DNA from: Sordariomycetes sp. S80-01Y
Taxonomy: Eukaryota; Ascomycota; Sordariomycetes
Direction: 5' to 3'
DNA: 64,000 nt
Assembly (NCBI GenBank): GCA_037042185.1
Contig: JAXQJY010000033.1
Span: forward strand, 372,001 to 436,000
The position numbers were made by a program, and so were the translations under genes. Under the pieces are notes generated by a model. It worked only from the letters and a program-made list of their open reading frames with translations, was not told the origin of the DNA and did not search any database. The stretch's first letter is position 1. Each line of letters opens with the position of its first letter. Below are positions 17,996 to 64,000 of the stretch, piece by piece.

Positions 17996-20833
17996 TCACC
18001 TCACCTCCCGGTCCTCACTGTGCGTAACCTCCACGAGGGGGGACGACTGCCGCCGGCTGCCCGTGAACTTGTCGACGACCTTTTCGAAAAGCCTGCTGTG
18101 CAAATGTGCCTTCTCCTGGTGGTGGACTCTCCGCGCGACAACTTCGTCTGTGTTTGTCTCCTCGTCCCTGTGTCTCAAGTCTGCGTGAGCGGCACCGGCC
18201 GGGTCGACCATCACTCTCGCGTCGCGTACGAGCTCCAGGAAGATGGGGTAGCACATCATGAGGACTTGAAGTACGATGATGACGATATAGGATGTTTGGA
18301 CGGAACCGCCGGTGGAGACGATGCCGTACATGATGAAGGGTGCGGCGCCGCCACCTGAGCCGCCCATCGTAATGAAGGCGGCGGCTCGTTTCGTTCTGCG
18401 TCCCTGGCCACGGAGGCCGATGGCGAAGATTAGTGGCCAGACCGGCCCTTCGGCGAAGAAGAACAGCACCACGGGGATGACGAGGAGGTTCGCGTTGTGA
18501 GGATGCAACACAACTGGGAGGAGAGCGAAGAGGAAGGATAGGGCAAGGAAGATGGTGAGTAAGGTCCGCGGTCGGGGCAGCCGTGGGTGGTGGACAGAGG
18601 CGTAGGTGAGGTAGCCAGCTAAGAAGCGGGAGATGACAAACGCTGTGTGCCCGATGAGGAGGTAATCGGGAATGGAGATGGCGATGCCTGGTGGTCGATC
18701 GGGGTTGGAGGTACTGCTGGGACCTTCTGTTGCATCCTCGCCGGAGTCTGTAGTAGACGGTAGTATTGAGACAAGCAGATCACGGAAGTAGATGCTATTG
18801 CTCTCCTGCGCAGCGACGTAAAAGTATTGCGCCGCTACAGCGAGTATGAGAGACACGGTCCGTAGTTGCAAGCCGAAAACGGACTTCTTCTGGGAATCGA
18901 CCGGGAGCCGATTGGCTGAGTCCTCGAGTTCCTGGTCCGAGACCTCGGGCAGGGGCATGTAGTAGAAGAACAGCCCCAGCGCGGAGCAGAGGAGGGTGAT
19001 GGCGAGGTATGTCCATTGGACGTTGATGAGGGTTGTGTTGTCGCTGAAGCCTTCCCGGCCGATGTTGCGGAAGAAGACTTTGTTCGCAAGCAGGCCTGAC
19101 AGGACAGACCCGACAGCTTGTACGGCCTGCGCTAGGAGCAGGCGCGTCTCGCCGTATTCTTGCGGTCCGCACAGGATGATGAAGGCATTTGCTGCCACTT
19201 CGAGGACAGAGAGCCCGAAGCCGACGATGAAATTGGACACCATGAAGCCACCGTATGAGTTAGTCACGGCCGAGGGCCAGAAAATGATGGTCCCGATCCC
19301 GTAAATTGACAGTCCAGTAATGAAGGTGACCTTGAACCCTCCGACATTCTCGAATTCGTTCTTACGATGGCGCTTCGAGCGATTATGCTCGTCTCGGCGG
19401 AGGATCCATTCTCCCACAAGCAGCGGTCCAAAGAGGTAACCACCCCCGAAGTAGGCGCTCGTCAATCCAAGTGTTTGCGCAGTGGAGTAATTGTTGATGG
19501 CCGCCACAACATTGTTGAGCGTGTTAAGCAACCCGTACGAAAGACCCCACAAGAAGAAGAGGATGGCGACGGTCGAGCAGTACTTGAAGGATTCGGAAGG
19601 CGTCGTTCGAAGCATGCTCTTTGGGCGCGCCATGTTGACAAAACCAAAGTATGTCGCGTTGTCGCTGTGATTCGTGCCGGCGGTCATGTTCGTTCTTGCG
19701 CGAGAAATGGTGCTGGCGCGGTTATTCGGCGCAGCGTCCATGCCCTCAGGTACCGTCAGGAACTCCATCGCGGAAATATCTTGGTCTTGAGCGGGTTGCT
19801 CATGTTGCGCTGGATCGTCAGGCAGGACGGCGGTGGGAGGAACCTGGACGTCGACTGGGGAGTCATTGTGACGGTCTGGAGAATCGGATTCAGAGGGCTT
19901 CGAAACGGATGTGCTGCTACGATCGGGGTCGTAAAGCATAGCAGGGAGAAGCTTCAAGATGAGAGGCTTGAGAGTTGGTATGCAAGCGCACGTGATGCCG
20001 ATATTGACCTCCACGGCAGACCACATGAAGGACAGGGATGCATTCCATGCAAAGTCCTCTTGGCCTCCGAACGTCGATCCGATGCTGCTTGAAGGGCCGG
20101 TCGGAGCTTCGGACAGCGCAGATTGGAGGAAGTGGATTCTCACAACGTCGACGATGGTAATGAATATCCCCAAGCTGAACAGGAAGACCACGGCGATTTT
20201 TTGTCGTTTCGGCAAGCGCATGCCCGTCAAGACGGGAATCGGGAGGAAGAGCAGGCAGAGATTTGTGATTATGTTGATCGGTGAGGAGCAGATGAACTCG
20301 GTGAGGAGCGGAATGCACTTGACCTTGCCGGCGTAGTAGGGATTCCAACCAGCAGAGACTGGACTGCATTGGAAGATGTTGAGAAAGGTGAGGATGATGC
20401 CTGCGAGGTTGACCACGCCCAGGAGCGCCCAACTCCAGTACTTCAAGACAAACTGCGTGTTCTTGAACAGCCGCAGGTAGAAGATGAGTACTGAAGTCTT
20501 AGTCGCCATGAGAGCCGGATTGTACAGCACACTGAAGACATACTCGCACCGCCTGAGCATCCCACGGTCATCTGATGCGATATCCTGATCATACCTGCCA
20601 AGCCCATTCGCCGTCCCCAGCGCAATACTGAAGCTCAGGAAGAAGGCAATCAGCCACGCCAGCATCATAACACGGTCATCCCAGCGAACACAGCGTACGA
20701 TGAAGAAGCGCGTAATCAGCCGCGCCGCCACGAACGCTGAGGCCAGACATAGTGTCGCAATGGAGACGGCGAAGACGGTTGGGCCGCGGTCGGGGATGTT
20801 GTGGTTATCCAGGATGGCCTCGGTGGCAAGCAT
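17996..20833 (-). CDS. Fusion protein: SAT4/rhodopsin-like receptor domain plus fucose-permease-type MFS transporter
   Basis: One uninterrupted exon of 945 residues starts at the ATG at 20833. Residues about 20-300 are a fungal rhodopsin (SAT4/PTH11-related) domain with seven helices and family hallmarks: RFFIVRCVRWDD after helix 1, the YFSVLYNPAL-like segment with ATKTSVLIFYLRLF, the FQCSPVSAGWNP loop, and FLPIPVLTGMRLPKRQK. A disordered Pro/Asp/Ser-rich linker (about 300-395) ends in YFGFVNMARPKSML. Residues about 415-890 are an FHS/FucP-like MFS with ILFFLWGLSYGLLNTLNN at its first helix. SAT4 proteins are membrane proteins of poorly known ligand; FucP-like proteins import sugars by proton symport. 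The fusion suggests a sensor-transporter. The C-terminal 60 residues are charged and cytosolic. The lack of introns, and one continuous frame with intact motifs on both sides, argue against an assembly artefact. Confidence 0.9.
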   Translation of the reverse strand: MLATEAILDNHNIPDRGPTVFAVSIATLCLASAFVAARLITRFFIVRCVRWDDRVMMLAWLIAFFLSFSIALGTANGLGRYDQDIASDDRGMLRRCEYVFSVLYNPALMATKTSVLIFYLRLFKNTQFVLKYWSWALLGVVNLAGIILTFLNIFQCSPVSAGWNPYYAGKVKCIPLLTEFICSSPINIITNLCLLFLPIPVLTGMRLPKRQKIAVVFLFSLGIFITIVDVVRIHFLQSALSEAPTGPSSSIGSTFGGQEDFAWNASLSFMWSAVEVNIGITCACIPTLKPLILKLLPAMLYDPDRSSTSVSKPSESDSPDRHNDSPVDVQVPPTAVLPDDPAQHEQPAQDQDISAMEFLTVPEGMDAAPNNRASTISRARTNMTAGTNHSDNATYFGFVNMARPKSMLRTTPSESFKYCSTVAILFFLWGLSYGLLNTLNNVVAAINNYSTAQTLGLTSAYFGGGYLFGPLLVGEWILRRDEHNRSKRHRKNEFENVGGFKVTFITGLSIYGIGTIIFWPSAVTNSYGGFMVSNFIVGFGLSVLEVAANAFIILCGPQEYGETRLLLAQAVQAVGSVLSGLLANKVFFRNIGREGFSDNTTLINVQWTYLAITLLCSALGLFFYYMPLPEVSDQELEDSANRLPVDSQKKSVFGLQLRTVSLILAVAAQYFYVAAQESNSIYFRDLLVSILPSTTDSGEDATEGPSSTSNPDRPPGIAISIPDYLLIGHTAFVISRFLAGYLTYASVHHPRLPRPRTLLTIFLALSFLFALLPVVLHPHNANLLVIPVVLFFFAEGPVWPLIFAIGLRGQGRRTKRAAAFITMGGSGGGAAPFIMYGIVSTGGSVQTSYIVIIVLQVLMMCYPIFLELVRDARVMVDPAGAAHADLRHRDEETNTDEVVARRVHHQEKAHLHSRLFEKVVDKFTGSRRQSSPLVEVTHSEDREVR

Positions 20834-22887
20834 CTTGTCGATGCGCGGGGAGAATTAAACCCAGGACCGAAGTCGGAATCAAGTCAATGGGGTTTGTGTT
20901 CGAGCCATTGTCGAAAGCGGTGGACTGAGGAGGAGCGCGGTGGTGAGGCCATACAAACTGGCTTCCGCTGACGGTCGAAGAGGCTACACGGGGTGGGTTG
21001 ATCTCTATTTTTTCGGTGCACCGGTTCTCGTGAGCGCGAGTCAACCCAAGATTCAAGTCCAGGTATTGCGTCGGTCGGGTCGTGCGTGGATCGACAACGG
21101 CGAGCAGTTGAAGAGAATAAGGATTGCGAGCTGTGGTGGGTATGCGGGTTGCGGATGGATTTTGCAGATGTGCTGTCGGCACTGGCAGGTCTGGCGAAAT
21201 GCGACGGCGCGGGAGTGTGGCGTGTCCCAATTTAAATCAGGCCTTTTTCCTGGAGCTTCCCCAACTTGAAATTCCTCGACGGGGAAAAATGGAATCGTTA
21301 GTGCTGAAGAAAAACGTAGCGTCGTTGGAGCAGGAAGTCTCTGGCAGTGGAGACCTTGTGATGTGCGCCGCTAGTCGCTCCAGCGGTGCCGTGCTGCGAG
21401 TCGTCGGATGATCGGCCTGCAATGACACGCTCGACACCTTTTGACGTCTGTAGGTGTGGCTGCGATAATTATGTGCGTCTGCTGGGCAACATGCGGTGAA
21501 CCGTCCAACCCAAGGTGACTGCAATCCAAGGTCGATGCGTTGGAATGGCGGAGAAGACGGAAGACGTCGACTGTTTCCAGACAGGACTCGGTCAATTGAC
21601 GGTGGGCTCGGGCGCTGATCCGCCGGGGAGGGGTTGACCCAGAGACAAATCACAACCCCAGGCGTTTGCCGCCTAGCTTAACCGAGTATAGGCTTTTGGC
21701 CGTCTTGGTGGCTGTAGTGGTAATGATGACAGCTGAGGCTTTGGAACCTGGAGTGAGTAAGGCCGACTTGCGTTCGCACCTCCAAGGCGAGGTCGTTGAA
21801 GATGTTCGACGTCAAAGCAGACAGCCCAACATACGAGAAATCTGGACAAGGAGGGCATCAACGCAGGTTGAGGGGAACAAGACCGATGCTGACGCTGGTG
21901 AGGGATATTGGAGGTCTCGTGACATCTTCTTGCTCACGAAAAACTGCAGCGCTCCTGCCGCTCCATGGCTCCCGAGTCCAGCGTGTCGGGAGCGCTCGGA
22001 CCACCTGACATCACCATTGACCGCAACCGGGCCAATTGCGTCTCAGCAAATCTCATTCGACGGCCCCGCCTCCCCAGATTTCAACTCGCACCTCGACTTG
22101 AGCCGCCAATGTCGAGTCGGACAGATTCCTCAGAGAGCCCTCCAACGCAGTCCCTGTCCCAAGTATGCGCGTTGCAACTGTGCCCTGCGACTGGTGGAAT
22201 GAGCTCCCGTTCCCTCTCACGTCCTCATGTCTGTTCATCGGCACGGTCAGCCCTCGTCATCGTGACCTCCAAAGAAGTGCTGCCAACACCTCGAGCAGGG
22301 ATCGTCTGTAGGCACCGACATACCGCTTCGGCCAGTGGTTCCGGCTCAGTTCATTTCCTGGTCGGTTTCCCGCTCTCATCGCCCGATCTGAACCAGTCGC
22401 CTCCCCTAACCCAAAAGTTGCACCGACTCCGAAACTCTATTGCTCGTTGCCCGACAGGCCTCGATTTTGACACGCAATGCCACGAAGTACGCTGAATTGA
22501 TTTCGCATTTTCTTCGCCCCGTGGGCCGAGTACCTGCGTCTGGCATGTTGCACTATTGACTTACATTCTCGTGTCGTCTGTCACGTGGCGTCTCACCGTG
22601 AGATTTTCTGCGACACCGACTGACAGTTTTGCGTCAGACCCCTGGTGCTTATTGTCCGCTGCGGAAGGACCTCAGAGAGCCGTACCAGTCTGGGGTCGTC
22701 CAATACCAAAAACGTGGTTCCTCATACTACGACGATAGAGTTGAGGCCGTTGCCGTTTTAGCCCATTACGTGCATGTTTGAGCTTGGAAGGTATTATGAG
22801 GTTATCCTGCGCTGGGTTTCAATTGCCCCAATGTGGCTTCAGCCCTCTCTGCCCTTGATACGCGCCACACATTCGAGGCCCATCTTG
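20834..22887. other. Two-kilobase gap, no supported gene
   Basis: This lies upstream of the fusion gene and downstream of the F-box gene (both minus). The longest frames (about 176 residues) are Ser/Pro/Arg-rich and overlap other frames, so I regard them as chance. The right part presumably carries the F-box 3' UTR, the left part the fusion gene promoter. Confidence 0.45.
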
Positions 22888-51585: not shown

Positions 51586-52419
51586 TCACAGCTCCTCCTT
51601 GGTCTCAGATTCGGCGGCCTTCTCCTTCAGCACATTGGCAGTCACCCTGAACTCAGCCTTGTTGTAAAGATCCGGGCGTTTGTGGTCTGTCCATCCGATG
51701 ACGTTGCCCGCTTCAACATCGGGCTTGTACAGACTCAAATCAAGGAGCTGGTCTGCAGGTCCGGTTGTTAGCAAAAAAAAAAAGTTCAGGCATAGGCAGA
51801 GAAGACCATAAAGTGGCTCACCTTTACACTCGCTCTCCTCAGCAGCCCAAAGAGGCAGAGTGTGATAGATCGCCGCCGGCGCGAAGATAACGACCTGCTC
51901 ACCATCTTTTTCCCTGTTCGCGATGTCCTCCACATCAACCACATCCTCGATGAAATCTTTCTTGTCTGCCGGCTTCTTGAAGACTCCAAACAGCCCCTTC
52001 CACTCCCCGCCTTCCCGTTCCTGCTTCTCGATCCAATCCTTGACGGCATTCGGAAGCTCATCCATCCCCATCTTGAGGAGACTTCGATCGTAGCCGTGCC
52101 TGTCGTAGCCGCTCCAGCCACCAGGATACTCCCTCTGCTTGAACAAATTCTTTAGCCCGGGCGCCCATTGCTTGAGACCGAGTGGCTCGGGCTCTTCAAG
52201 GTCGTGAAGCGTGTACTCTTGGGCCCAGAAGTGCTTTTGAACTGTGCAAGAGGGCTCGATGTGCGTGGCATCTTTGAGGGTTGGGAAGGGGTCGCGCCAG
52301 AGAAAGCCGGAGACGATGTGGGGTGTGATGTTGTTTGGCGGAGGCTTCTTGTGAACGCCTTGCGCGACGGCGTTTGTTGCCAAAAGGGCTATGGCAAAGG
52401 GGAGGCTTGAGAGCTGCAT
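51586..52419 (-). CDS. Small secreted protein of unknown function
   Basis: Two exons, 52419-51822 and 51752-51586, give 254 residues. The intron (51753-51821) has a GTGAGC donor, a T-rich tract and CTGCAG; it is 69 nt, a multiple of three, and has no in-frame stop, so unspliced message would encode a 277-residue form with a hydrophobic insert. The first 19 residues are a typical signal peptide (MQLSSLPFAIALLATNAVAQ). The mature part is rich in Trp, Lys, Asp and Pro, with WRDPFPTLKDATHIEPSC, YPGGWSGYDRHGYDRS and VVIFAPAAIYHTLPLW. Only two Cys are left in the mature spliced form. I do not recognise the family. It lies 566 bp from the 3' end of agd3 in the same direction, at the edge of the exopolysaccharide cluster, where the synthase gene would be expected in Aspergillus. 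Confidence 0.8.
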   Translation of the reverse strand: MQLSSLPFAIALLATNAVAQGVHKKPPPNNITPHIVSGFLWRDPFPTLKDATHIEPSCTVQKHFWAQEYTLHDLEEPEPLGLKQWAPGLKNLFKQREYPGGWSGYDRHGYDRSLLKMGMDELPNAVKDWIEKQEREGGEWKGLFGVFKKPADKKDFIEDVVDVEDIANREKDGEQVVIFAPAAIYHTLPLWAAEESECKGEPLYGLLCLCLNFFFLLTTGPADQLLDLSLYKPDVEAGNVIGWTDHKRPDLYNKAEFRVTANVLKEKAAESETKEEL

Positions 52420-52985: not shown

Positions 52986-55189
52986 CTACAGAGAGACGGC
53001 CTCGCTAAGGGTCAAGACCACAGGGCTCCCGTTCATGCTGACCCAGACAATCGTGGGCTCATCACCAACGTTCTCTTCCTCCTTGCTACCACCACTGGCA
53101 GTAACGCTCCCCCCAGGGATCGTAACCGGCACGTTAACCCCGCATCCATTGCCGTCGGTGGTCAACGTCACGCTGTCTATAGCATTGCCATTGCTGGAGT
53201 ACTTGTAACTCAGCTTGGGCTCGCAGTTGTCCAGCGTCATGCGGTCGACAAAGTACTTGCCAACATCGTCGTGCTTCAGGGAGATGATAGGCCAGGAAGT
53301 CAGCCTCATCATCTCTTGGACGATGGTCTCCGTCCAGGCCATGAGGATAGACATCTTCCCTGTCTGCGAACCAACTGTCATCGTGGGCATGTCCATCTGG
53401 CGCATGTTTGCTTGATGGAACATGTAGGGATCTGCCATCAGTCCCAGCAAGTGGCGGGTGTTGGTTGTGCGCGCGTCCGTTAAAAGATTGCTGAAATCCC
53501 CCGAGCCGGCGGATGTGTCAATCCACTCTTGAGTCGTGCACTCTGGGGTATCGCAGTTGTAATAGATGGTTGTCGCGAAGCGAGGGACGACGACGACGCC
53601 ATCGTAGCCGTTGCGAGCAACTGTAGTGATGAGAGGATGGTGTTTTGAGACGTCGCTCCTGAGCACGGGGCGCGTGTTGTCACCTACGGCGTAGAGGATG
53701 CCGTTGTCTCTCCAAGCGCGGAGTGCGTCGCCGTTGTGCAAGCCCGTGATTTGAGGTGGGATGAGGCCTTGAGGAGAGAAAAAGGGCGATTGATCGATGC
53801 CCATCTGCTGCAGCCAGTCTTGGTTAAAGTGAATCTCACGGGTAGTATCGTGATACGTGGCATTGTTCAGGGGTAGATGGGTGAAAGTATGTGAGACGTG
53901 AGCAAAGGCATCGCGGTTGTTGGCGTCGAGCCACCAGGCGGCGAAGTCGTCCAGCTCTGTGCAGGTGGACGTCCATCCGTATTGTTCGAACATGTCGGGC
54001 CACTTATCAGTGCCGGTGCCAAGCGGCTTCTTGAACTCAAGTTCCGTGTCGGGGGGAAAGTCGTAGTCGACCGCCTGGTCAGGAACGCAGACATCGTCAG
54101 ACTGATCCTCGGGATCAGTGGAAGCAATGAGGTTACCGTTGCCATTGTGGCCCATCTCAAGGAGGAAGTTGGAGCCAGCGGGCAGACGGCTGTTGAGGTT
54201 GCTTTGCCAGGTGACATGGCCTTCCATATCACCTGTGCGGGTCTTGAACTCGGTACCCGCCGGTAGGTACAGCCCAGTCGAGAGTTGAACATCGTCCACT
54301 TGGCAGTTCAAGTAGGTCTTGCGCTTTCCCACGAAGAGTCCACGGGTCATCCAGTGAATGTGGGCGTGCTGGAGGAAGTTGGAGGTTATGGACCAGTCAG
54401 TAGCCCAGCCGATGAAGTAGACGAACTGCTCGCGGCCGTCGAAGTTGTTGATGACTGCGGCGACAGTATCACCTGAGAAGTCTCCGCCGGGGCCGAACTT
54501 GGCAACCTCCCAGGTGGTGGCGGCATCCGTGATCTCGGCAGGGTAGTGCCAGAGTCCTTGGGTGGTCACACCAGCGTTTCTGCAAGCAGTCAGTTCTGTG
54601 GCCACTTCGGAACAAGTTTCTGAGCCCACTCACGCCTTGAGCTTGGCAGTCGGAAAGGCAGTGGTGTTGGTCAAACTGATGAGTTGCTCGACGCCACTGC
54701 CGCAACAGCCACCACCTACAGCGCTTGCTCCTGGACATCTTGATTAGTGCCAACTTCGAGATTAGGCTGAAGAAGGAACTCACCAAAGGCGGGCCCAGGA
54801 TACTCATCCGTGCGCACCATGCGGACGTGAAAGTCCTTCTGGTACTCATGAATTGTATTCCACTGCTCTGTGGTGATGGCGCTTTGCCACGAGCCGTCGT
54901 AGTCATATGAGACTGCGCCCATAACAATGATGCCCCCATAGCGACCCTGAGTCTCGGAGCCAGTCAACGCCGGCAGTTGGATTCCCTCTTTAGGCACAAT
55001 CACCGTCTGGAAGGGGATGCCATAGGCTTCGAGACCAGAGCTAGCGGTCGAGGCCGAGTAGTCATCTCGGGCGAAAATGAGGACTGTACTGTCGACGGTG
55101 GCTCCAGGCACAGCATAAGCGCGGGAGGCTAGGCCGAGGATTCCTCCCCATGCAAGCAGTATATACTGCAGGAACCGGTGACTGAGCAT
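52986..55189 (-). CDS. agd3: Agd3-type galactosaminogalactan deacetylase (secreted, CE18)
   Basis: Three exons, 55189-54784, 54730-54634 and 54579-52986, encode 698 residues. Introns (54731-54783 and 54580-54633) restore PAFG-ASAVGGGCCGSG and KLKA-NAGVTTQG. A signal peptide covers about 1-26 (LLAWGGILGLASRAYA). The N-terminal Rossmann-like part (VLIFARDDYSA, IIVMGAVSYDYD) leads to a carbohydrate-binding middle, then the deacetylase domain: LNCQVDDVQLSTGLYLPAGT with the metal/catalytic Asp pair, HVSHTFTHLPLNN with two His, and WRDNGILYAVGDNTRPVL. These match Agd3, which removes acetyl groups from part of the GalNAc units of secreted galactosaminogalactan, making it cationic and adhesive. The length fits family members. 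The C-terminus is short and Ser/Gly-rich. It sits divergently to ega3 across 1.76 kb. Confidence 0.92.
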
Positions 55190-56947
55190 GCTGGTTGCAA
55201 CCTGGTGTTAGTGGCACGACTTGGGACAGGTGAGACGGAGGACGAGGTTGTTGATCCCGACTTGGAACGAAGCGGATGCGAAGGGCTGCTTCTTATGTCA
55301 AAGCATGTCAGCGTGAGAGAATGGGACCTGGCAGGATACCCAAGCGAGAGGTGTCGGGAACGAGGACACTTCGCATAGCAAAGGCAAAGGCTCGCTCCAT
55401 TAGACGTAGGGGCCGCTTGGCAGAATGGGGGACCTGAAGCTGCTGCCGACCGAACTATTCAGCCATAGCTCAAGCCAAGTGCAGTCTCGAAGCGGTTTTC
55501 TCAACGTTTCACGAAACAATTTAGCTTGCCCACCACCATCTTCTTTTAGCTCGATAAGCAGAAGAAAGTTGGCGTCCGACGCCCACGGGCAAATGCACGG
55601 GAACGAGGCAAGGGATCCAGGGGGGCGTAGACTAACACCGGCAGGGAAGCCTCATCGGAGGCTAAGGCGGTCCAACCACCGGCGCGTCTGCCGAGATCTC
55701 GGATCATGGACGCATTCCCAACCCTTGGGAGAAGGTCAGCCGCACGCTCAGCCCCTGGGAGGCGCCGGAAGCTTATTATTGCCGGGCCCTGGACGCAGAC
55801 CTTGACCCCATGGCCAGGCCCAATGTAGACCTCAAGGCTGCGAGGCGTCGGTTTGGCGCCGAGCGAAAACTTCTCGTCTGCGGAGGTTACGGTGGTCGTC
55901 GCACTGCAGTGTCAGGCAGAAAACCTGCAAGCCATGCTAGGAACCTCGTATCGACACGCGGGGGACGGAAGGGGGGACGGAAGAATGTTCAAAGGCAGAA
56001 GAGATTGGCTCTGAGTGGTCGTGCCTGAATGGCAAGGGATCTGGTACCGGTACACACGAAGCTTGGCTTTCAAGAAGTCGAGAAGTAGATGTACAAGATC
56101 GTACCGGCAGGGGATGTTGCTTATTCTGCGGGGAAGACAGCGCATAGCTCCGGGCCAGATTCAGGCAGGGTCCCTGTCCCCCGAACAGCGAGGTGTGCTG
56201 AGTTGTTCTGCTCCCTCACGCTGCAGGGAGAGAAAGGAAGCGCTGTGAAACCTATCCAACGCTGGGGGCGCTGCTCACAACCTTGAGCCTGAGTGAGAAA
56301 TTGTTCTGGCTGGCGCAGTAAAGTACACCTACCATACGCTTTTGGCAACGCGACAGGCACACGGCTTCTTGTCAAGAACATTGTGAAGCGGGCGTCAAGC
56401 CACCACCCAAAAACCATTATATGCTTAACATCAAGCTTCAAATTGTGGGTGTGTGGTGTCAGCGCTGAGTTATGCGCTCTACGTACCGTCTCAGCTTGGA
56501 GGAACCGTCGGCCTCCACCTGAAACTCGCAGGCTAGCGGTGATCGACCGGCATGGTAGATTCATGCCCCGTCGTTGGAAAAGCAAAAACTTCCAGGGCCG
56601 TCTCCGCTCTGCCGCCCCCAAAGCCGCAGGGCTAAAATAGCGACTGTCGTTCGGCGAAGTGTTTGCGAAAGCGGCATTCAACGTTGCAAAAGCCCGAGGT
56701 GCTTGAGCCAAGGCGAGGCTGGTGCTGGATGGTGCCGGATTGCCGCGTCGCGGTCCAGAACCCCCCAACATCGACCCATTCGAGGCAGACTTCATCTCAG
56801 CCCTGTGGCTGAGCTAAATCCTTCTGTCACTCAGGGTCCTTTGTCTGTTGCGACAAAGATCGTCGGTTGCTTTAATATACTCGCTCTCGCATCGATTTTC
56901 GGGGCCTACAATTGACCAAGAACGGCAACCACGCAGAATACGTCGCC
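55190..56947. other. Divergent intergenic region between agd3 and ega3
   Basis: No supported gene. The 224-residue minus-strand frame at 56121-56795 is Arg/Ser/Pro-rich and without motifs. The region probably holds the promoters of both cluster genes. Confidence 0.45.
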
Positions 56948-58046
56948 ATGCTGGGTTTTGGCAAATCTCACGCGCAGGTCGACGCGGTCGAAAAACCCGC
57001 CAAGCGGTCATGGTCGCTGCGCAAAAAGCTGCTGGTCATTGCCATCATAGCCATCGTAGTGATTGCTTTGGCAGTGGGTTTGGGTGTTGGCCTGACCCAA
57101 GGTGGCGGAGACGACAACGATGACAGCGATAACAACGATGACAGCAGTGATGGCGATGATGGACAGGAGGGCGTGCCGGACGAGGGTCCCGAGCGTGACA
57201 GCGCATGGAAGCCCAAGGTCAACGACTCCTGGCAGATTGTCCTCCGCTACCCGATTGACATGAGCTCCGAGGACGACATCAACCCGGACGTAGCAGTCTA
57301 CGATTTGGATCTCTACGACAACGACATCGAGACCTTCCGTATGCTCCAGGATGCTGGCAAGAAGGTCATCTGCTACTTCAGTGCTGGCTCGTGGGAGGAT
57401 TGGCGCGACGACAAGGATGACTTTGACGACAATGACCTCGGCAAGGAGCTAGATGGCTGGCCCGACGAGCGCTGGGTGGACGTGACCAGCTCGGGCGTCA
57501 GGGACATCATGAAGGAGCGCATCAAGCTGGCTTGGAGGAAAGGCTGCGATGCTATTGACCCCGACAATGTGGACGGCTTTGTAAGCCCCCTTCTGAAGCC
57601 TCAATGTGACAGCGTCCTAACAGCAACAGCAAAATGACAACGGCCTTGGCCTAACGGCTGACGACGCGGTTGACTTCATGCAATTCCTGTCGGACGAAGC
57701 CAAGAAGTATAACATGGCCGTCGGCCTCAAGAACGCCGGCGCCATCATCCCCGATGTCATCGACTTCATGGACTTCTCAGTCAACGAACAGTGCATCCAG
57801 TACAACGAGTGCGACACTTTTGCGCAGTTCATTGAGGCCGACAAGCCAGTGTTCAACATCGAGTACCCCGCCGGTGATTCCGAGGACAAGAGCAAGATCA
57901 AGTCCAGTGCGAAAGACGAGATCTGTTCGCAGAAGGGCAAGGCGAGCGACACTGAGGGCTTCAGCATTGTCATCAAGCTGATGAATCTGAACGGGTGGGT
58001 GGAGTACTGTGACGGCGACACTTTTGAGACGGCTGTGGATAATTAA
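56948..58046 (+). CDS. ega3: Ega3-type membrane-anchored endo-alpha-1,4-galactosaminidase (GH114)
   Basis: Exons 56948-57580 and 57630-58046 encode 349 residues. The intron begins GTAAGC; two in-phase acceptors (57623 and 57629) exist, and the second is better spaced from the CTAAC branch site. The start is the ATG at 56948. This is a type II membrane protein: cytosolic 25 residues (KRSWSLRKK), a helix at about 28-49, then an Asp/Asn/Ser/Gly-rich spacer (about 52-85). The rest is a GH114 barrel: WQIVLRYPID, DVAVYDLDLYDND, KKVICYFSAGSWEDWR, GCDAIDPDNVDGF and VNEQCIQYNECDTF. D206 and E264 have the spacing I recall for the catalytic Asp/Glu of Aspergillus Ega3. Ega3 cuts deacetylated (galactosamine) stretches of galactosaminogalactan. 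It sits between agd3 and sph3, as in Aspergillus fumigatus, but on the opposite strand from both. Confidence 0.92.
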
Positions 58047-58109
58047 GGATGACTACCGTGGGCATAGCGAGGAGAAGTTTTGAATTCGAGCGTGCTTTTG
58101 TCTGCAAAG

Positions 58110-58859
58110 CTATAGACCCTCGTCGAGGGCTCTGACAAGGCTTCTCCATGTGCGTGGCCATTTCGTGAAATTCCCACCCTCCTGTTCGGTGATGTATAAG
58201 CCCGCAAAGCCCGAGCCTCGGACTTCTTCAATAACCTGCTCGAGTCCTCCTTCTGCAGTAGAAAAGGTGTGCATGATGACGAGAGCCTTGGAATGCAGGT
58301 CTCCTGGGAGTCCAGATCCTTCCTCTCGCGTTGCCTGCAGCGCTTTCCAATGGGCCTGTGACTGTTCAAACGTGACAACGTACTCTGCGTTGTCGAAGAA
58401 TGCTCGGTCTACAACAACCCCGGGATTGTATATCACAAGACCATGCCGGTTCAAATTCGTCTGCCACGTGCTGTGAACATGATTGGAGAGTGAGGCCATG
58501 TATGGCAGGCTGCTTGGATCCGATGGTACCTCATCGATGAAGATGCCTTCGAGCCTGAAAGTGCTGTTCCACTGGCGATAGAGGTCGACATCTCTCTGTA
58601 CATCCACAAGAGCGCGCTGCCCGTAGCTGGTATGGACATACCCAATAGGATGAATATTGGCAATGAGATTCAGCTTGCGCAATGCAGCCTTGTAGCTTGC
58701 ATCGGGCATGGAATCTGGTCCGGGTCCGTTGCCCGGGTTGACTATGACCAGGAAGCGCACGTTGGGATGCGCCTCTGCGGCGTGAATCAGAGGATCCCAA
58801 GCTTTCTTGAGGGGGTAAATGTAGAGCGGCAGAATGACGCAGAGTGGTGCCATCTTCAT
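58110..58859 (-). CDS. sph3: Sph3-type endo-alpha-1,4-N-acetylgalactosaminidase (GH135, spherulin 4 family)
   Basis: A frame of 249 residues from the ATG at 58859 covers the whole spherulation-specific family 4 barrel: VILPLYIYPLKKAWDPLI, VRFLVIVNPGNGPGPDSMPD, HPIGYVHTSYGQRAL, VDLYRQWNSTFRLEGIFIDE with the catalytic acidic pair, LVIYNPGVVVDRAFF, YVVTFEQSQAHW, and HTFSTAEGG with GFAGLYITEQEGG near the end. Sph3 cleaves N-acetylgalactosamine-rich stretches of galactosaminogalactan and is needed for its production. Aspergillus Sph3 is membrane-anchored near the N-terminus. Here the barrel starts within 10 residues of the ATG and no signal or anchor is visible. The frame stays open upstream to about 58910 (PFIIWFRHAAPAVH), so a 5' exon with an anchor may be spliced on. 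The stop lies 64 bp from the ega3 stop (convergent). Confidence 0.88.
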   Translation of the reverse strand: MKMAPLCVILPLYIYPLKKAWDPLIHAAEAHPNVRFLVIVNPGNGPGPDSMPDASYKAALRKLNLIANIHPIGYVHTSYGQRALVDVQRDVDLYRQWNSTFRLEGIFIDEVPSDPSSLPYMASLSNHVHSTWQTNLNRHGLVIYNPGVVVDRAFFDNAEYVVTFEQSQAHWKALQATREEGSGLPGDLHSKALVIMHTFSTAEGGLEQVIEEVRGSGFAGLYITEQEGGNFTKWPRTWRSLVRALDEGL

Positions 58860-58865
58860 GTGCAC

Positions 58866-60096
58866 TGCTGGTGCGGCGTGACGGAACCAGATGATGAACG
58901 GGCTTCCTGCTGGCTACAGTAGTTCCTCCGATCTTCGGCAATGCCTCAAGGAACTGTTGATGATCTTGAGTAGGTTCCCTCGAGGAAAGCTATTATGTGT
59001 TCTGAGCGTGGTCTTGTCAGTATGATACCACTAAGTCTTCTCCGAGAAGCTTCAGAAACTTGGGCAGCGAGGTCTCGTATGAAATGCCAAGCATGGAAAG
59101 CTGATGTACACGTACGCCTGCGTCGTTGGTAGAGATGTGCTGAATCGCAAGCCCACGCTACTGCGGCTGGGGCTGACATCGGGTGCTGCGGGCTGAGCTT
59201 GCATAATATGCCTGTCGTGTCCCAAGCCACCAAGACCCCGAATCCCGTTTTGGCATCCCCTTGCACAACCAACAGAGCTGACCTGAAGCTGCGGGAAAAA
59301 TCATTTTGCAAGAAGCACGGGCGGATCGTGGCCTGTGGAACTGGACGAAGCCGAGCCTCGACTTCGTCATCTCAGTCCAAGGCCGGGAAGAATCATTGGT
59401 ACGGCTTGCTCCTCGGGGTGGCACAGCAGGCTCCAAATCCAGGTCCAATGGACGCTGCCCGCAGATTCACAAACTCCGAAGCTCTTGTTCGCGGCCGAAA
59501 TTCCGCCTGAGCTACTCAGCACGGAAGCCGGACTTTCGCCCTGCATGGAAGATCTCGGCGATTTGACGAGGGTTGGAATGCGCTGAAACAGCGAATTGCA
59601 CCGTGAGGAACTCCACTTGAATGACTTGCAGCGGCCCAGGTTGCCAGGGTCGCTTGCTCAGCTGTTTGCGTAGGGCCTGTGAAGGGGAGATCGTCCTCCA
59701 GCATGGGTTGACATCCTCGGACTGTGTAGCTGTCGGCCGCGAGAGGTTGGAAAGTGAAGATCTCGCGAAGATCAGCGTAGATTGATGAACACACTGGGAG
59801 ATCTGATCCGAGCTAGTGTCACGTGGCGGTGACGTGTAGGCGCAAGCCAGAGAAACAATGCCGGGCCAGCAGCGTCAACGACTCATCATCATCATTATTA
59901 TTATCATTGAGTTCCTTGTTGTTCGCGCTCACGATTACATGACTGTATTTCTGCCTCATCATGCTACATGATGGTGACTCGGACCTGATAAAGAAAAAGC
60001 GACTTTTTACCCCAGCTTTTACCCGCCACAATTACCTTAATATCGAAACCTTATTCCACGCACCGAACAATTCATGAGACCTCGAAATGCGACTCA
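58866..60096. other. Intergenic region between sph3 and uge3
   Basis: No confident gene. It may hide a 5' exon of sph3. It contains a trinucleotide tract at about 59883-59908 close to the uge3 3' end. Confidence 0.4.
59883..59908 (+). repeat. TCA/TTA trinucleotide microsatellite
   Basis: About four TCA units pass into TTA units. It lies in non-coding sequence downstream of uge3. Confidence 0.8.
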
Positions 60097-61395
60097 TCAC
60101 TTTCTCTCAGCCTGCGACCTGGAAACGTAGTTCCACAAATCGCTCGCGCACTGCTGAATGCTCTCTTTGGCGGCCCAGCCAAGCTCCTTGAATGCGCGGT
60201 CATTGGAAGCAACGCAGAACCCGACATCCCCTGCACGTCGACCAGTCCAACGCACAGGAATGTCCTGGCCTGCAGCCCTCTCAAGACTTTGGACGGCCTC
60301 GATCACGGTAGTGCCGGTTCCGGACCCTAAGTTGAAGGTGCGGAAGGGATCCTTGTGGGTTGAGCCGAGCGCTGCAATGTGACCTCGAGCAACGTCGGAC
60401 ACATGGATAAAGTCGCGGACTGCAGTGCCATCCCGGGTGTCCCAGTCGGTTCCAAACACATCAAGCTCACTTCGCGCCCCAGTGAGGACATGCGTGATGA
60501 CCGGGAACAGGTTCGTGGGAGTTTGCCTGGGGTCTTCACCGAGGAGACCTGAAGAGCAGCAGCCGACGGGGTTGAAGTACCTCAGCGCCACAATGCGCCA
60601 GTCTGGGTCGGATTGCGCAATGTCGGCAAGGATTGCTTCGCAGAAGTATTTGGAGCGAGCATAAGGGCTTTGCAGGCCGGCAACTGTGGGCTCGGCTGCA
60701 ACAAGTTCGCCGTTGTGGTCGACGTAAGTCTCTGGATGGTGGACAAGATCCTCCTCTCGTAATGGCCTGCCAGTATCGGCTTTAGTGCCATAGACGGTGG
60801 CTGATGACGAGAAGACAAAATTGCGAATGCCGTGCTGCCCCAGAAGTTCGACCAAGTCGACTAGGCCGCACACGTTATTGCGGTAGTAGGCAATGGGTCT
60901 CGAGATCGACTCCGAGACGGATTTGAAAGCAGCAAAATGGATGACTCCGGAGATTCGTGACTGGCGGACAAGAGAGGGAGATTGATCCGCGCTGTCTGGT
61001 ACGACCGATGTCAGGTCGGAATAGGATTCGAGGAGGAACCGCATTGAATGACTGCGGTAATCCAGCTTGTGGAAGTGCAGTGCAGGCATTTCCCGACTGG
61101 AGCCATGGTAGTGCTTTGCTGCCAACTTCTGGATCCTGGTGAAGACACTGTCGAAGCTGTTGCTCAAGTCGTCGACAATTACCACGTTGTACCCGGCTTT
61201 GAGAAGCTCGAGCGAGGTGTGAGATCCTATGAAGCCAAGCCCGCCAATGACGAGAATGAAGCGACTCTTGACTCCAGAGGAAATCGGTGCTGGCGCTGCG
61301 ATGCCATATTCAGATCCCGAGCTTGGCGTTGTTGGCGGCGAGCTGTGGAGCGATGAGGCCTGGGAGAACACTCTTGAACTCCAGTAGCTGTCCAT
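60097..61395 (-). CDS. uge3: Uge3-type UDP-glucose/UDP-GlcNAc 4-epimerase
   Basis: A single exon of 432 residues. It is an extended SDR: the NAD-binding GGLGFIGSH at 51-59, the FSSSATVYG segment at about 195-203, and the active-site YARSK at 245-249. LRYFNPVGCCSSGLLGEDP contacts the sugar nucleotide, and RDFIHVSDVARGH is diagnostic of GalE-type epimerases. A 40-residue Ser/Pro-rich N-terminus precedes the fold. In Aspergillus fumigatus Uge3 interconverts UDP-Glc/UDP-Gal and UDP-GlcNAc/UDP-GalNAc in the cytosol, supplying both donors for galactosaminogalactan. Sequence alone does not prove dual specificity, but its place beside sph3, ega3 and agd3 strongly favours it over the housekeeping galactose-pathway Uge5. 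It is transcribed in the same direction as sph3. Confidence 0.92.
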   Translation of the reverse strand: MDSYWSSRVFSQASSLHSSPPTTPSSGSEYGIAAPAPISSGVKSRFILVIGGLGFIGSHTSLELLKAGYNVVIVDDLSNSFDSVFTRIQKLAAKHYHGSSREMPALHFHKLDYRSHSMRFLLESYSDLTSVVPDSADQSPSLVRQSRISGVIHFAAFKSVSESISRPIAYYRNNVCGLVDLVELLGQHGIRNFVFSSSATVYGTKADTGRPLREEDLVHHPETYVDHNGELVAAEPTVAGLQSPYARSKYFCEAILADIAQSDPDWRIVALRYFNPVGCCSSGLLGEDPRQTPTNLFPVITHVLTGARSELDVFGTDWDTRDGTAVRDFIHVSDVARGHIAALGSTHKDPFRTFNLGSGTGTTVIEAVQSLERAAGQDIPVRWTGRRAGDVGFCVASNDRAFKELGWAAKESIQQCASDLWNYVSRSQAERK

Positions 61396-64000
61396 GGTGA
61401 TAGAGTACCCTTGGATGATAGACGAAGATGAAGGGGAAAAGGAGAACCAGCTCGCAAAGCCGAGGTTTTTGATGGATGAAGAGCTTGACCTCTAAGACCT
61501 CACTAGTCCACTTCGGACATCGTCAACTTTATACCGCTTCATGGCTCAGACTTATGCCGAATTTCAAGCAGCCAAGGAAAGCCTCTCCTGCGTCAATATT
61601 GGGCTCTTGGTTCTAGGCGCTGCTGGAAGAGGCGCCATCACAACATCAACTAGCTGGAAGGGGCCAGGCCTGCTCGCCTCGGCACGATTCCACAAGTAGA
61701 TGTCTAATCTGGACGGCCGGCGCGGATTCAGGCTCAGGACAGCTCTTCACGCTTGGTGTGCTTTTCTCGGACAAGTCTAGCTTGGCACTAGGCCGTGGGA
61801 TACGACTGCAGGTGAAACGGTGTTTGAGTGCCAACCGGGTTTGAGCTTCGGTGCAATCTAAAATTGCTTGATAGCGCCAGATGCCTCTAGACGCGCGATG
61901 TCATACGAGAGGCAAACACAGCCATACGCACCCATCTTGACCAGAGGCAAATCGCTCTTCCGTCGAACCATCTCGCTATGGCTGCCGGGTCGGCAAAGCT
62001 CTGCTCAACTGCGCTACCCAGAGACCCAGCTCCAAGGAGTGGGTGCCAACGTGCACCATACGGTTGTTCTGATGCGCATCCATTCCCTGTCCAAGAGGCT
62101 CAGCTGGCATACGGGCTGCCTTTCGGGCTATCCGCCGGAGTCACCCAAACAGTGGACGACAAGGCTAACTTGCAGTCACCCTGCATGCTACGAGATGCTT
62201 AGGTTGCGATCTTGACCCGATCGATGAGTCTCAACGATTGCGTGCTGTAAATCTGGACAAGGCAACGACCCTCTGTCACTCCACACACACGTTCAACACA
62301 GCCTGTCCCCTTGATCAATCATCCTTTAGGTAGACGCCTTTTCGTACAAGTAGCCGGATTTGGACAAGGCTCAACGGCGCGGACTTATTGACACCTGAAT
62401 CTGCGAAAAGCGAGTGCGGCACGGCGGTCGTTGCGACCGTGGCCGTTCTTTGTTGTTGGAAAAAGCAAAGCCCGTGCGTCCGTCGTCGGGAGCTGCTGGT
62501 CCACTGGCCGACAAGGGCTCCGCCGCGGGCGTTGACAAACTGCCGAGACGATGGAGCGCCTCAGGGGTCGGTAGCATGTACCGGTACATGTATCGGTCTG
62601 CCAAGGGAACCGCCCGATGGAAAGTCTCGTGTGGCAGATCTGGGACGGCGCTAGGGCTGGGAGGTATCCCGTCCGGCGACTGCTAGCCTCGAACGGGCTG
62701 CAGGGTGCATATACACGAATCCCGGTTTCGACCTCCCAGCAAAAGAAGAAAAGTCCTCTCGTGCATCAGGATTTGGGCCGCACACCGACAGGCATGGGAT
62801 GCCTCTGTCGCACGCTCACCAACGATGCGTCCGGCTGGATACGACCAAGCCTCGTGGCAATATCTCGAGGCTCGGGGATTTGGCGGGCATTCAGCCGATT
62901 TATTGGCACCTCACCGCAGCGAGTCTGGATCTCTGTACAACCCCACGAAATCTCGCGGCTCGCGCCGATTTCGTCTACTCAAAATCAAGCTCGGCCGACC
63001 GAGATTGGCTCCCGCGAAGCGCCACACAGCCTGGTGTGTATGTACTCTGTAGGCTCGACGAAGATGCACTCACCGGTTGTCACCCTCGGTGGTTGCATTA
63101 AAGCTCATGCGGCTTTGTGGCCCCGGGGCTTCGTGTTGCGCTACCAGCCGTGTCATTGGTGCTCTGTTTCTTCCACGTCGACTGGAACATCCACTGCAAG
63201 GGCCTGGCTCACCTGGGCAGCTCGTTACCTGCACAAGACATTCGCGAGATTTATTCTGCCTGAATTCGTGTTGCCCAGCTCGCCAGCAAATTCTGCAGCG
63301 AGGTAGCCAGCATATCCCTGTGATGCTTCAGCAGGGCCGTTTCCTCGACTCCATTGGCCCCGAGTTGCGCAATATTGTGGCGGGCATCGACGGGCATGAC
63401 GGTCGACTGTGAGGCGCATCCTCCAGCCCGACCCGTAACTTGAAGTGTCGGACGTCTCCTTGGAGGCTATAGATAGTTTCAACCACATGTTTCCACCCAA
63501 GGGTCCCCAAGTCAGACCCATTCACTCCTGGCGCGTTTACGCAGTGGGACTCCGGTGTGCTAGTTGTGTAAGGGTCTGTTAGCTGGACCCACGATTTGCT
63601 GCATGGGCCGCGCCAAAGAGCGTAGGGGACCAGACCCTCCTCACCTACGCTTTTCGTCACTTTCTTGCTTTTCTCTTTGTTGGTTCTCCGGTGAGCTATC
63701 CCTGCTGGCCAAGTCGGCCGGACCCATGTAAGGCATGGGGATAGCGAGCACTTCGGAAGACCCTCTTGCCATAACCCTTTCGAGACACCATTACCGCCAC
63801 CCACACTTCCCACAGACCAGCCAAGCTTTGCCTTCTAGAGGATGGTCAGGGGAGGGCCCAGCTCTTAGTGTCCTCGTACCTGCTGTAGCAGCTTCAGGCG
63901 CCGCCGATCCTTGCGCCGGAAGTGCTCTACGCGGCTCGCCACCAGCTCTCTAGTCTACGATGCCCTCCCGAACACAAAGAAAACAATGTCATTCTCCATC
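61396..64000. other. Gene-free right end upstream of uge3
   Basis: No supported gene in 2.6 kb. The longest frame (62617-63306, 229 residues) has no recognisable motif and looks like chance in GC-rich sequence. It probably includes the uge3 promoter, and perhaps the 5' region of a gene beyond the window. Confidence 0.4.
61527..61535 (-). promoter_or_regulatory. TATA-like element of uge3
   Basis: On the minus strand the sequence reads GGTATAAAG, about 130 bp upstream of the uge3 ATG. The match is by eye. Confidence 0.45.

Follow-up and report, generated by a model that had tools for sequence, protein, structure and literature searches.

A galactosaminogalactan biosynthesis cluster, very probably complete, in a hypocrealean fungus

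Do four neighbouring genes for carbohydrate-active enzymes in a 64,000-nucleotide stretch of fungal DNA (the window, meaning the whole stretch analysed) form a route to galactosaminogalactan (GAG), an adhesive polymer that fixes hyphae to surfaces, and is that route complete? An earlier note, each of whose calls came from motifs, had named the four agd3, ega3, sph3 and uge3, and matches in Pfam, NCBIfam and the PDB confirm all four where it placed them. It had also credited them with a full supply, modification and cleavage route, which is borne out for the four enzyme families; the polymerase is missing from the window and sits right outside it. We conclude with high confidence that this is a complete GAG biosynthesis cluster with four of its five genes inside the window (Table 1), its owner being a hypocrealean ascomycete as judged by the synthase gene. 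The cluster is a genuine further member of a published type and, apart from its Sph3, an ordinary one. Published work is cited below by PMC number.

Table 1. Features of the cluster, by position in the window; synthase coordinates are continued past the window end
Feature	Position	Strand	Description
agd3	52986..55189	−	secreted GAG deacetylase; CBM87 + CE18 + C-terminal domain
agd3/ega3 intergenic	55190..56947		1.76 kb between divergent genes; presumed bidirectional promoter
ega3	56948..58046	+	GH114 endo-alpha-1,4-galactosaminidase; N-terminal membrane anchor
sph3	58110..58859	−	GH135/Spherulin-4 domain, 249 aa
uge3	60097..61395	−	UDP-glucose/UDP-HexNAc 4-epimerase; single exon, 432 aa
uge3/synthase intergenic, window part	61396..64000		start of 3.08 kb region between divergent genes
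synthase (gtb3 type)	64479-72808, window-extended	divergent from uge3	outside window, beside uge3

Gene models in the window

The agd3 gene spans two reading frames on the minus strand, one (52986-54629) carrying Agd3_CE (E 1e-179), CBM87 and Agd3_C and the other (54716-55189) the N-terminal half of CBM87 (Pfam). The gene continues to 55189, a correction to the extent given in the earlier note. Two GT-AG introns, at about 54783-54716 and 54633-54580, have alternative joins that give a product of 693-698 aa; a fourth join would shorten it to 668 aa at the cost of domain sequence. The product matches PDB 6nwz with 604 bits, and in that alignment (chain offset of 122, counted by hand) the positions corresponding to A. 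fumigatus D377, D378, H510, H514 and H668 (numbering of PMC7229062) are conserved. The Agd3 N-terminus, MLSHRFLQYILLAWGGILGLASRAYA, looks signal-like by eye. The region between agd3 and ega3 is presumed to be a bidirectional promoter and holds a single match, at 56348, to a StuA-like consensus. Across the window this motif was matched 43 times against a shuffle mean of 68.6, fewer than in the shuffles, so that the scan gave no evidence for StuA sites and no support for co-regulation.

Two frames on the plus strand, 56912-57637 and 57678-58046, match Glyco_hydro_114 (Pfam, E 5e-44 and 4e-30) and are best read as a single ega3 gene with one GT-AG intron at about 57581-57629, encoding 349 aa or, with an alternative acceptor, 351 aa. 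The protein is closer to 6oj1/6ojb (299 bits) than to the other fungal GH114 structure, 9ep6 (132 bits), which places this hydrolase, as far as tested, with Ega3 as the earlier note had held. Equivalents of Ega3 residues D189 and E247 (PMC12054363) are conserved in the alignment (offset 41, counted by hand), and the N-terminal segment LVIAIIAIVVIALAVGLGV has a mean hydropathy of 3.23, as in an Ega3-type enzyme with a membrane anchor. The sph3 frame, 58110-58865 on the minus strand, matches Spherulin4 (Pfam, E 1.4e-70) and PDB 5c5g (131 bits), and its putative catalytic D, E and second E are invariant in all 24 alignment rows.

The uge3 product matches Epimerase (Pfam, E 1.5e-39), scores 310.8 bits with NCBIfam galE, above the 262.3 bits required, and contains the GGLGFIG and YARSK motifs. 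It shares 57-97% identity with 120 listed homologues, 119 of which have Cys at the specificity position, Cys394, the remaining row having a gap there. Under the published specificity rule for this position (PMC10482301), Cys is associated with UDP-HexNAc use; the clearest other GalE of the genome, on contig C9, is 40% identical to Uge3 and has Leu instead. By identity and by this Cys/Leu difference, as far as tested, Uge3 appears distinct from the housekeeping GalE. Each of the four proteins thus falls in the family first proposed for it (CE18, GH114, GH135 and GalE) with its catalytic residues conserved, and Pfam, PDB and NCBIfam assign none of them to an unrelated family.

A synthase with a PelF-like C-terminal part

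The earlier note had ended the cluster at 61395, yet a large multi-membrane GT4 synthase of the gtb3 type follows at 64479-72808. Its ATG lies 479 bases past the window end (L002:979, in the coordinates of the extended locus), and the gene was for this reason missing from the earlier gene list. A long exon (L002:979-8160, 2,394 aa) is followed by a glycosyltransferase exon ending at L002:9308. Glycos_transf_1 and Glyco_trans_1_4 score above their cut-offs and DUF3492 slightly below its own (22.5 against 23.3 bits); DUF3492 is also the database label of many synthase relatives among the listed matches. The N. crassa relative, labelled B19A17.110 and assumed here to be NCU05132, is 45% identical over 97% of the query. 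For comparison, the V. dahliae synthase VdGtb has 2,856 aa and 11 predicted membrane spans (PMC13245733).

Published work describes similarities between GAG and Pel synthesis (PMC9030451). We aligned 87 fungal sequences, the long exon found here together with those 86 of 120 listed homologues that measure 2,550-3,100 aa, and compared six slices and one combined slice by hhalign, with column-reversed slices as a repeat, to 48 profiles: PelD, PelE, PelF, PelG, GH114, GalE, a TPR protein of the PelB type and 41 unrelated families taken from the same loci (each slice giving 47 results). The C-terminal slice matched PelF with a probability of 99.9% and an E of 9.2e-31 over 433 columns, across both the DUF3492 and the GT4 parts, and its next best match had an E of 0.031. 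Among the 48 profiles a clear match was limited to this slice and to PelF alone. Moreover, hmmsearch matched five of five PelF sequences with E values of 1e-17 to 1e-28. Against the 100-bit PelF cut-off of NCBIfam NF038011, the glycosyltransferase exon alone reaches 84.4 bits, and its relatives in Amphichorda (89.2), N. crassa (88.6) and T. asahii (71.9) are likewise below. By these profile comparisons the C-terminal part of the synthase is PelF-like; in the titles, abstract beginnings and passages searched we found no published report of Gtb3 as a PelF relative.

A fusion of the whole PelD/E/F/G complex was considered and rejected on these sequence profiles, the ~2,000 N-terminal residues having no convincing match to any of the Pel components compared. 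The best values for N-terminal slices were an E of 0.006 for a control family and 0.008 for PelE (slice 1690-2100, probability 4.9%, 43 columns), and reversed slices reached 0.019; the PelE match is taken as noise. The N-terminal region likewise showed no convincing relation to PelD or PelG, and two other bacterial membrane proteins, from the L100 and L014 loci, had no match among the synthase slices.

Plasmids of Kocuria rosea (L100), Streptomyces californicus (L103), Thermus brockianus (L014) and Paraburkholderia graminis (L011) encode a PelF-type GT4 with a GH114, and some of these operons add Spherulin4, epimerase-family proteins or an Agd3-like protein. They cover most functions of the fungal GAG cluster, and such operons have been published (PMC7229062). 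Their glycosyltransferase and membrane partners are separate proteins, unlike the fungal synthase. Of the Agd3-like neighbours of pelF, that of Thermus scores 30.0 bits, above the 27.6-bit cut-off for Agd3_CE, while those of Kocuria (CBM87, 24.8 bits) and S. californicus (E 0.022) fall short. The loci of two weaker glycosyltransferase matches, in Herpetosiphon and Halomarina, contain no pel-like operon.

Proposed route and the location of Sph3

Given the families, catalytic residues, clustering, fifth gene and gene order observed directly here, the substrates, co-regulation and adhesive role would be those of the clusters characterised in Aspergillus, Neurospora, Metarhizium and Verticillium. 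Uge3 would supply UDP-Gal and UDP-GalNAc, and the multi-membrane synthase would polymerise and export the chain through its PelF-like GT4 domain. Secreted Agd3 would then strip part of the acetyl groups to give a cationic, adhesive polymer, whose deacetylated stretches membrane-anchored Ega3 may cleave, and Sph3 would cleave acetylated chain in a step tied to synthesis. The cluster adds a complete GAG set in a hypocrealean fungus and predicts a cationic adhesive matrix, production of an alpha-1,4 Gal/GalNAc/GalN polymer and adhesion being expected in this organism by homology. Among the literature matches listed, galactosaminogalactan is unmentioned for genera near it.

Sph3 is the member that departs from the Aspergillus pattern. 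Aspergillus Sph3 is described as membrane-bound (PMC12054363), whereas the N-terminus of the window gene model showed neither a separate signal peptide nor a transmembrane segment. In none of the 23 retrieved homologues does a transmembrane segment precede the GH135 domain either (one of them is a fragment lacking its N-terminus, and another, 99% identical, is probably the same gene), and in all nine named from annotated fungal genomes the first 70 residues hold no stretch above 1.23. The titles, abstract beginnings and passages searched contained no report of an anchorless Sph3. In the accepted model Sph3 sits next to the synthase on the outer side of the membrane, and the lack of an export segment here and in the retrieved relatives is a testable contradiction of it; locating where Sph3 works would tell its role during synthesis.

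The prospect that Sph3 does leave the cell, thanks to a missed short upstream exon or by an unconventional route, and acts externally like its Aspergillus counterpart, is close to evenly balanced. Its start, MKMAPLCVILPLYIYPL, scores as signal-like by an 11-residue measure, with 2.22 against 2.17 for Agd3, and two of 62 spliced alternatives extend this stretch to 19-residue means of 1.82 (with a non-consensus donor) and 1.63. However, MKMAPLCVILPLYIYPL forms the opening strand of the catalytic barrel and aligns within the A. clavatus domain known from its crystal structure, and therefore cannot be cleaved off; moreover, the 12 top-scoring and five canonical-donor models among the 62 have no hydrophobic segment apart from this strand, and the nine named homologues also argue against export.

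We tentatively propose instead, as a possibility rather than an expectation, that GH135 Sph3 is cytosolic in Sordariomycetes and in the related bacterial operons and acts where the PelF-type synthase faces the cytosol. GH135 would then lie inside with Uge3 and the glycosyltransferase domain, and GH114 outside with Agd3. This division parallels the deletion pattern of M. robertsii, in which surface GAG is abolished on loss of Sph, Uge or Gtb but not on loss of Agd or Ega (PMC8224951). The S. californicus operon is in line with hydrolases split across the membrane, its GH114 having a lipoprotein-like signal and its GH135, which begins before the upstream gene ends, having none. The Kocuria GH114, also without a signal at its annotated start, counts against the split, as does the N. 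crassa GH135 deletion strain, which is still adherent (PMC11356417) and so leaves an essential inner step unsupported there, a point in favour of export. Stand-alone bacterial Spherulin4 proteins were tried as a secreted contrast and set aside as weak, just two of four having a signal at the annotated start. Were the cytosolic location of Sph3 correct, the membrane anchor seen in Aspergillus would be exceptional, and the general role of Sph3 would lie elsewhere than in clearing clogged chains outside.

Comparison with known clusters and genomic context

We take gtb3 ahead of agd3 to be the actual map order in A. fumigatus. The five A. fumigatus genes gtb3, agd3, ega3, sph3 and uge3 represent the same five families as those found here, and the relative order agd3-ega3-sph3-uge3 is common to both (PMC4817252, PMC7229062); the synthase, however, adjoins uge3 here, whereas gtb3 is named ahead of agd3 in A. 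fumigatus (PMC10485009). The A. fumigatus gene order given in the earlier note accordingly stands for the four window genes and fails for the whole cluster, which follows Neurospora. N. crassa NCU05132-NCU05137 has the same five families in the same order of synthase, epimerase, GH135, GH114 and deacetylase, and has one additional small gene with a signal peptide, NCU05134, lying between epimerase and GH135 (PMC11356417); the gap between sph3 and uge3 here is 1.2 kb. Five-gene Sordariomycetes clusters have been proven by deletion to produce GAG in M. robertsii (MrGAG, PMC8224951), where order and orientation are unlike A. fumigatus, and in V. dahliae (VdGAG, PMC13245733).

It is improbable that the present cluster is a degenerate remnant with GAG production lost. 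The lack of an Aspergillus-type anchor on Sph3 might suggest as much, since A. fumigatus (PMC12054363) and M. robertsii (PMC8224951) are left without GAG when sph3 is lost, but all five gene models are open throughout, without stops and with plain GT-AG introns, and the four window genes keep their catalytic residues. Anchorless Sph3 is, moreover, common to the retrieved relatives and so is not damage confined to this lineage.

In six-frame searches of the whole 30.9-Mb genome, in which match counts are lower bounds, Agd3_CE and Spherulin4 were each found in one place, ~4 kb from each other, and GH114 gave at least three matches in two genes, the second, on contig C12, being of the F. solani type. 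By our own arithmetic, two other such genes would fall within ~10 kb of a gene present once in a 30.9-Mb genome with a chance of the order of 1e-6. Although members of GH114 and GalE occur widely and the first calls each came from motifs, this clustering and the adjoining synthase refute, to near certainty, a chance neighbourhood of unrelated carbohydrate enzymes with an ordinary Leloir epimerase, a reading also contradicted by the Leu of the separate C9 GalE and by the identical N. crassa gene order. Also counted in favour of a GAG cluster, 34 of the 120 listed synthase homologues apparently share a genome with one of the 120 listed Uge3 homologues, and several such pairs among the listed matches have consecutive locus tags, for example NLU13_6547/6548.

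Gene families and catalytic residues

The claim of the earlier note that agd3, ega3, sph3 and uge3 form a galactosaminogalactan (GAG) cluster is borne out by Pfam. Where they had been placed, agd3 encodes the three Agd3 domains, ega3 a GH114, sph3 a Spherulin-4/GH135 and uge3 a member of the NAD epimerase family. Against solved structures Agd3 scores 604 bits (6nwz), Ega3 299 bits (6oj1/6ojb) and Sph3 131 bits (5c5g), and 32 different sequences of GalE type match Uge3 with E-values of 1e-30 or below. The window covers positions 372001-436000 of contig C16 in a 30.87-Mb genome of 16 contigs. In that genome one place each was found for Agd3_CE and Spherulin4, together with two GH114 genes, and the cluster genes thus lie together beyond chance. 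The other GH114 gene lies outside the cluster and resembles F. solani FsGH114, scoring 285 bits to 9ep6 and 117 to Ega3; the GH114 of the window shows the opposite preference.

Positions of the GAG genes and of other frames (window numbering, continued past the window end; second GH114 gene in contig numbering)
Feature	Position	Strand	Model
agd3	52986-55189	-	two introns, 693-698 aa
ega3	56948-58046	+	one intron, 349-351 aa
sph3	58110-58859	-	
uge3	60097-61395	-	one exon, 432 aa
Synthase frame	from 64479	+	2,394 residues, then GT4 exon
Synthase exon join	71660/71706	+	2,761 aa spliced
Frame adjoining agd3	51586-52419	-	277 aa
7TM/transporter frame	17999-20854	-	952 codons, unbroken
Second GH114 gene	G000:C12:2230328-2230945		

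Counted along the 6nwz alignment, the published residues of A. fumigatus Agd3, D377, D378, H510, H514 and H668 (PMC7229062), are all conserved in the window protein, as are D189 and E247 of Ega3 (PMC12054363) in the 6oj1/6ojb alignment. The active-site D, E and second E of Sph3 are invariant in 24 of 24 alignment rows; the second E aligns to Glu222, and the other residue, printed as Asp196 in PMC12054363, is position 166 by count in the 5c5g alignment. At the substrate-size position Uge3 has Cys394, a Cys in 119 among the 120 homologues listed and a gap in one; the genome's GalE on contig C9 has Leu there, and C14 holds a weak further GalE-type match. According to PMC10482301, human GalE lacking this Cys loses UDP-HexNAc use and trypanosome enzymes with Leu use UDP-Glc/Gal only.

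The frame adjoining agd3 has a signal-like N-terminus, matched no Pfam family and is a possible additional cluster gene. Elsewhere in the window, a possible receptor-transporter fusion is suggested by one frame whose residues 44-299 match the rhodopsin-type 7TM domain of fungi and whose residues 430-838 match a major facilitator transporter.

The synthase and its bacterial parallels

Extending the window by 19.5 kb, the first 500 bases of which are the window's last 500, revealed a synthase gene divergent from uge3, whose favoured exon join was picked by eye among 34 possible, guided by the consensus of relatives. The five genes lie in the N. crassa order: synthase, uge, sph, ega and agd. The GAG cluster is real, intact and ordinary, in a new host. 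A hydropathy scan of the synthase shows two groups of strong membrane segments, nine in all, compared with the 11 described for VdGtb in PMC13245733. Its ~780 N-terminal residues (gene at L002:979-9308, in the DNA past the window end) match no Pfam family and nothing clearly among the profiles compared; relatives align across them. The 131 homologues include N. crassa P0084 and a T. asahii protein, both among the 120 listed. In a FastTree of 28 chosen sequences the protein groups with Amphichorda, Emericellopsis and Clonostachys (support 1.0; 0.92 and 0.35 within the group), a tree of one gene only, from a cluster type that has moved between fungi, as reported for T. asahii (PMC4817252).

Profile comparison of the synthase returned PelF (E 9.2e-31) and no convincing match to the N-terminal part. 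PelF is also the best NCBIfam family for the GT exon, at 84.4 bits and below the 100-bit cut-off; three relatives score 72-89 bits. Searched by tblastn against 72,556 plasmid records, this exon matched 28, annotated at the match as pelF (17), a DUF3492-domain protein (one) or other glycosyltransferases (four), with six lacking annotation. A Kocuria rosea plasmid encodes, consecutively, a weakly Agd3-like protein, PelF, a membrane protein, Spherulin4 and GH114; this operon may be mobile as one unit, since two transposase genes of identical protein accession flank it. On a Streptomyces plasmid PelF is accompanied by an unassigned protein, a pair of epimerase-family proteins flanking a nucleotidyltransferase, Spherulin4 and GH114, and a Thermus plasmid carries PelF, GH114 and an Agd3-like protein above the Pfam cut-off. 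Among 85 PelG loci in a set of 86, not a fair sample because 80 were picked by PelG likeness and most are Burkholderiales, a GH114 frame occurs in 33, a GalE frame in 10 and both in seven. These parallels are confirmation rather than discovery, because bacterial GAG-like operons were already reported, and horizontal transfer proposed, in PMC7229062.

Sph3 without an anchor

The one structural oddity of this otherwise ordinary cluster is an Sph3 without an anchor. Its reading frame starts at the first barrel strand, and between there and uge3 none of the three upstream frames has a 19-residue stretch above 1.20 mean hydropathy. Of 62 spliced alternatives, the 12 top-scoring and five canonical-donor models viewed have no hydrophobic segment apart from the first strand, which one alternative with a non-consensus donor extends to a 19-residue mean of 1.82. 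Nor does any stretch exceed 1.38 in the first 70 residues of 23 homologues, compared with 3.23 for Ega3; nine are named from annotated fungal genomes (Hapsidospora, Ilyonectria, Dactylonectria, Verticillium, Phaeoacremonium, three Cytospora and Diaporthe) and the other 14 may be unspliced calls. The same measure gives the Agd3 signal segment just 1.35, so it serves to detect membrane anchors but may miss a signal peptide. By an 11-residue measure the first strand itself scores signal-like; that it is part of the crystallised catalytic domain (5c5g) argues against a cleaved signal there.

Sph3 may belong with synthesis. As described in PMC8224951, M. robertsii mutants without Sph, Uge or Gtb lack the surface GAG signal, whereas those without Agd or Ega retain it, and the absent export segment here points the same way. 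Against this grouping counts the N. crassa GH135 deletion, which is still adherent (PMC11356417); that source mentions Sph3 with a membrane segment, in wording we take to mean the Aspergillus enzyme. The anchorless Sph3 merits a bench test.
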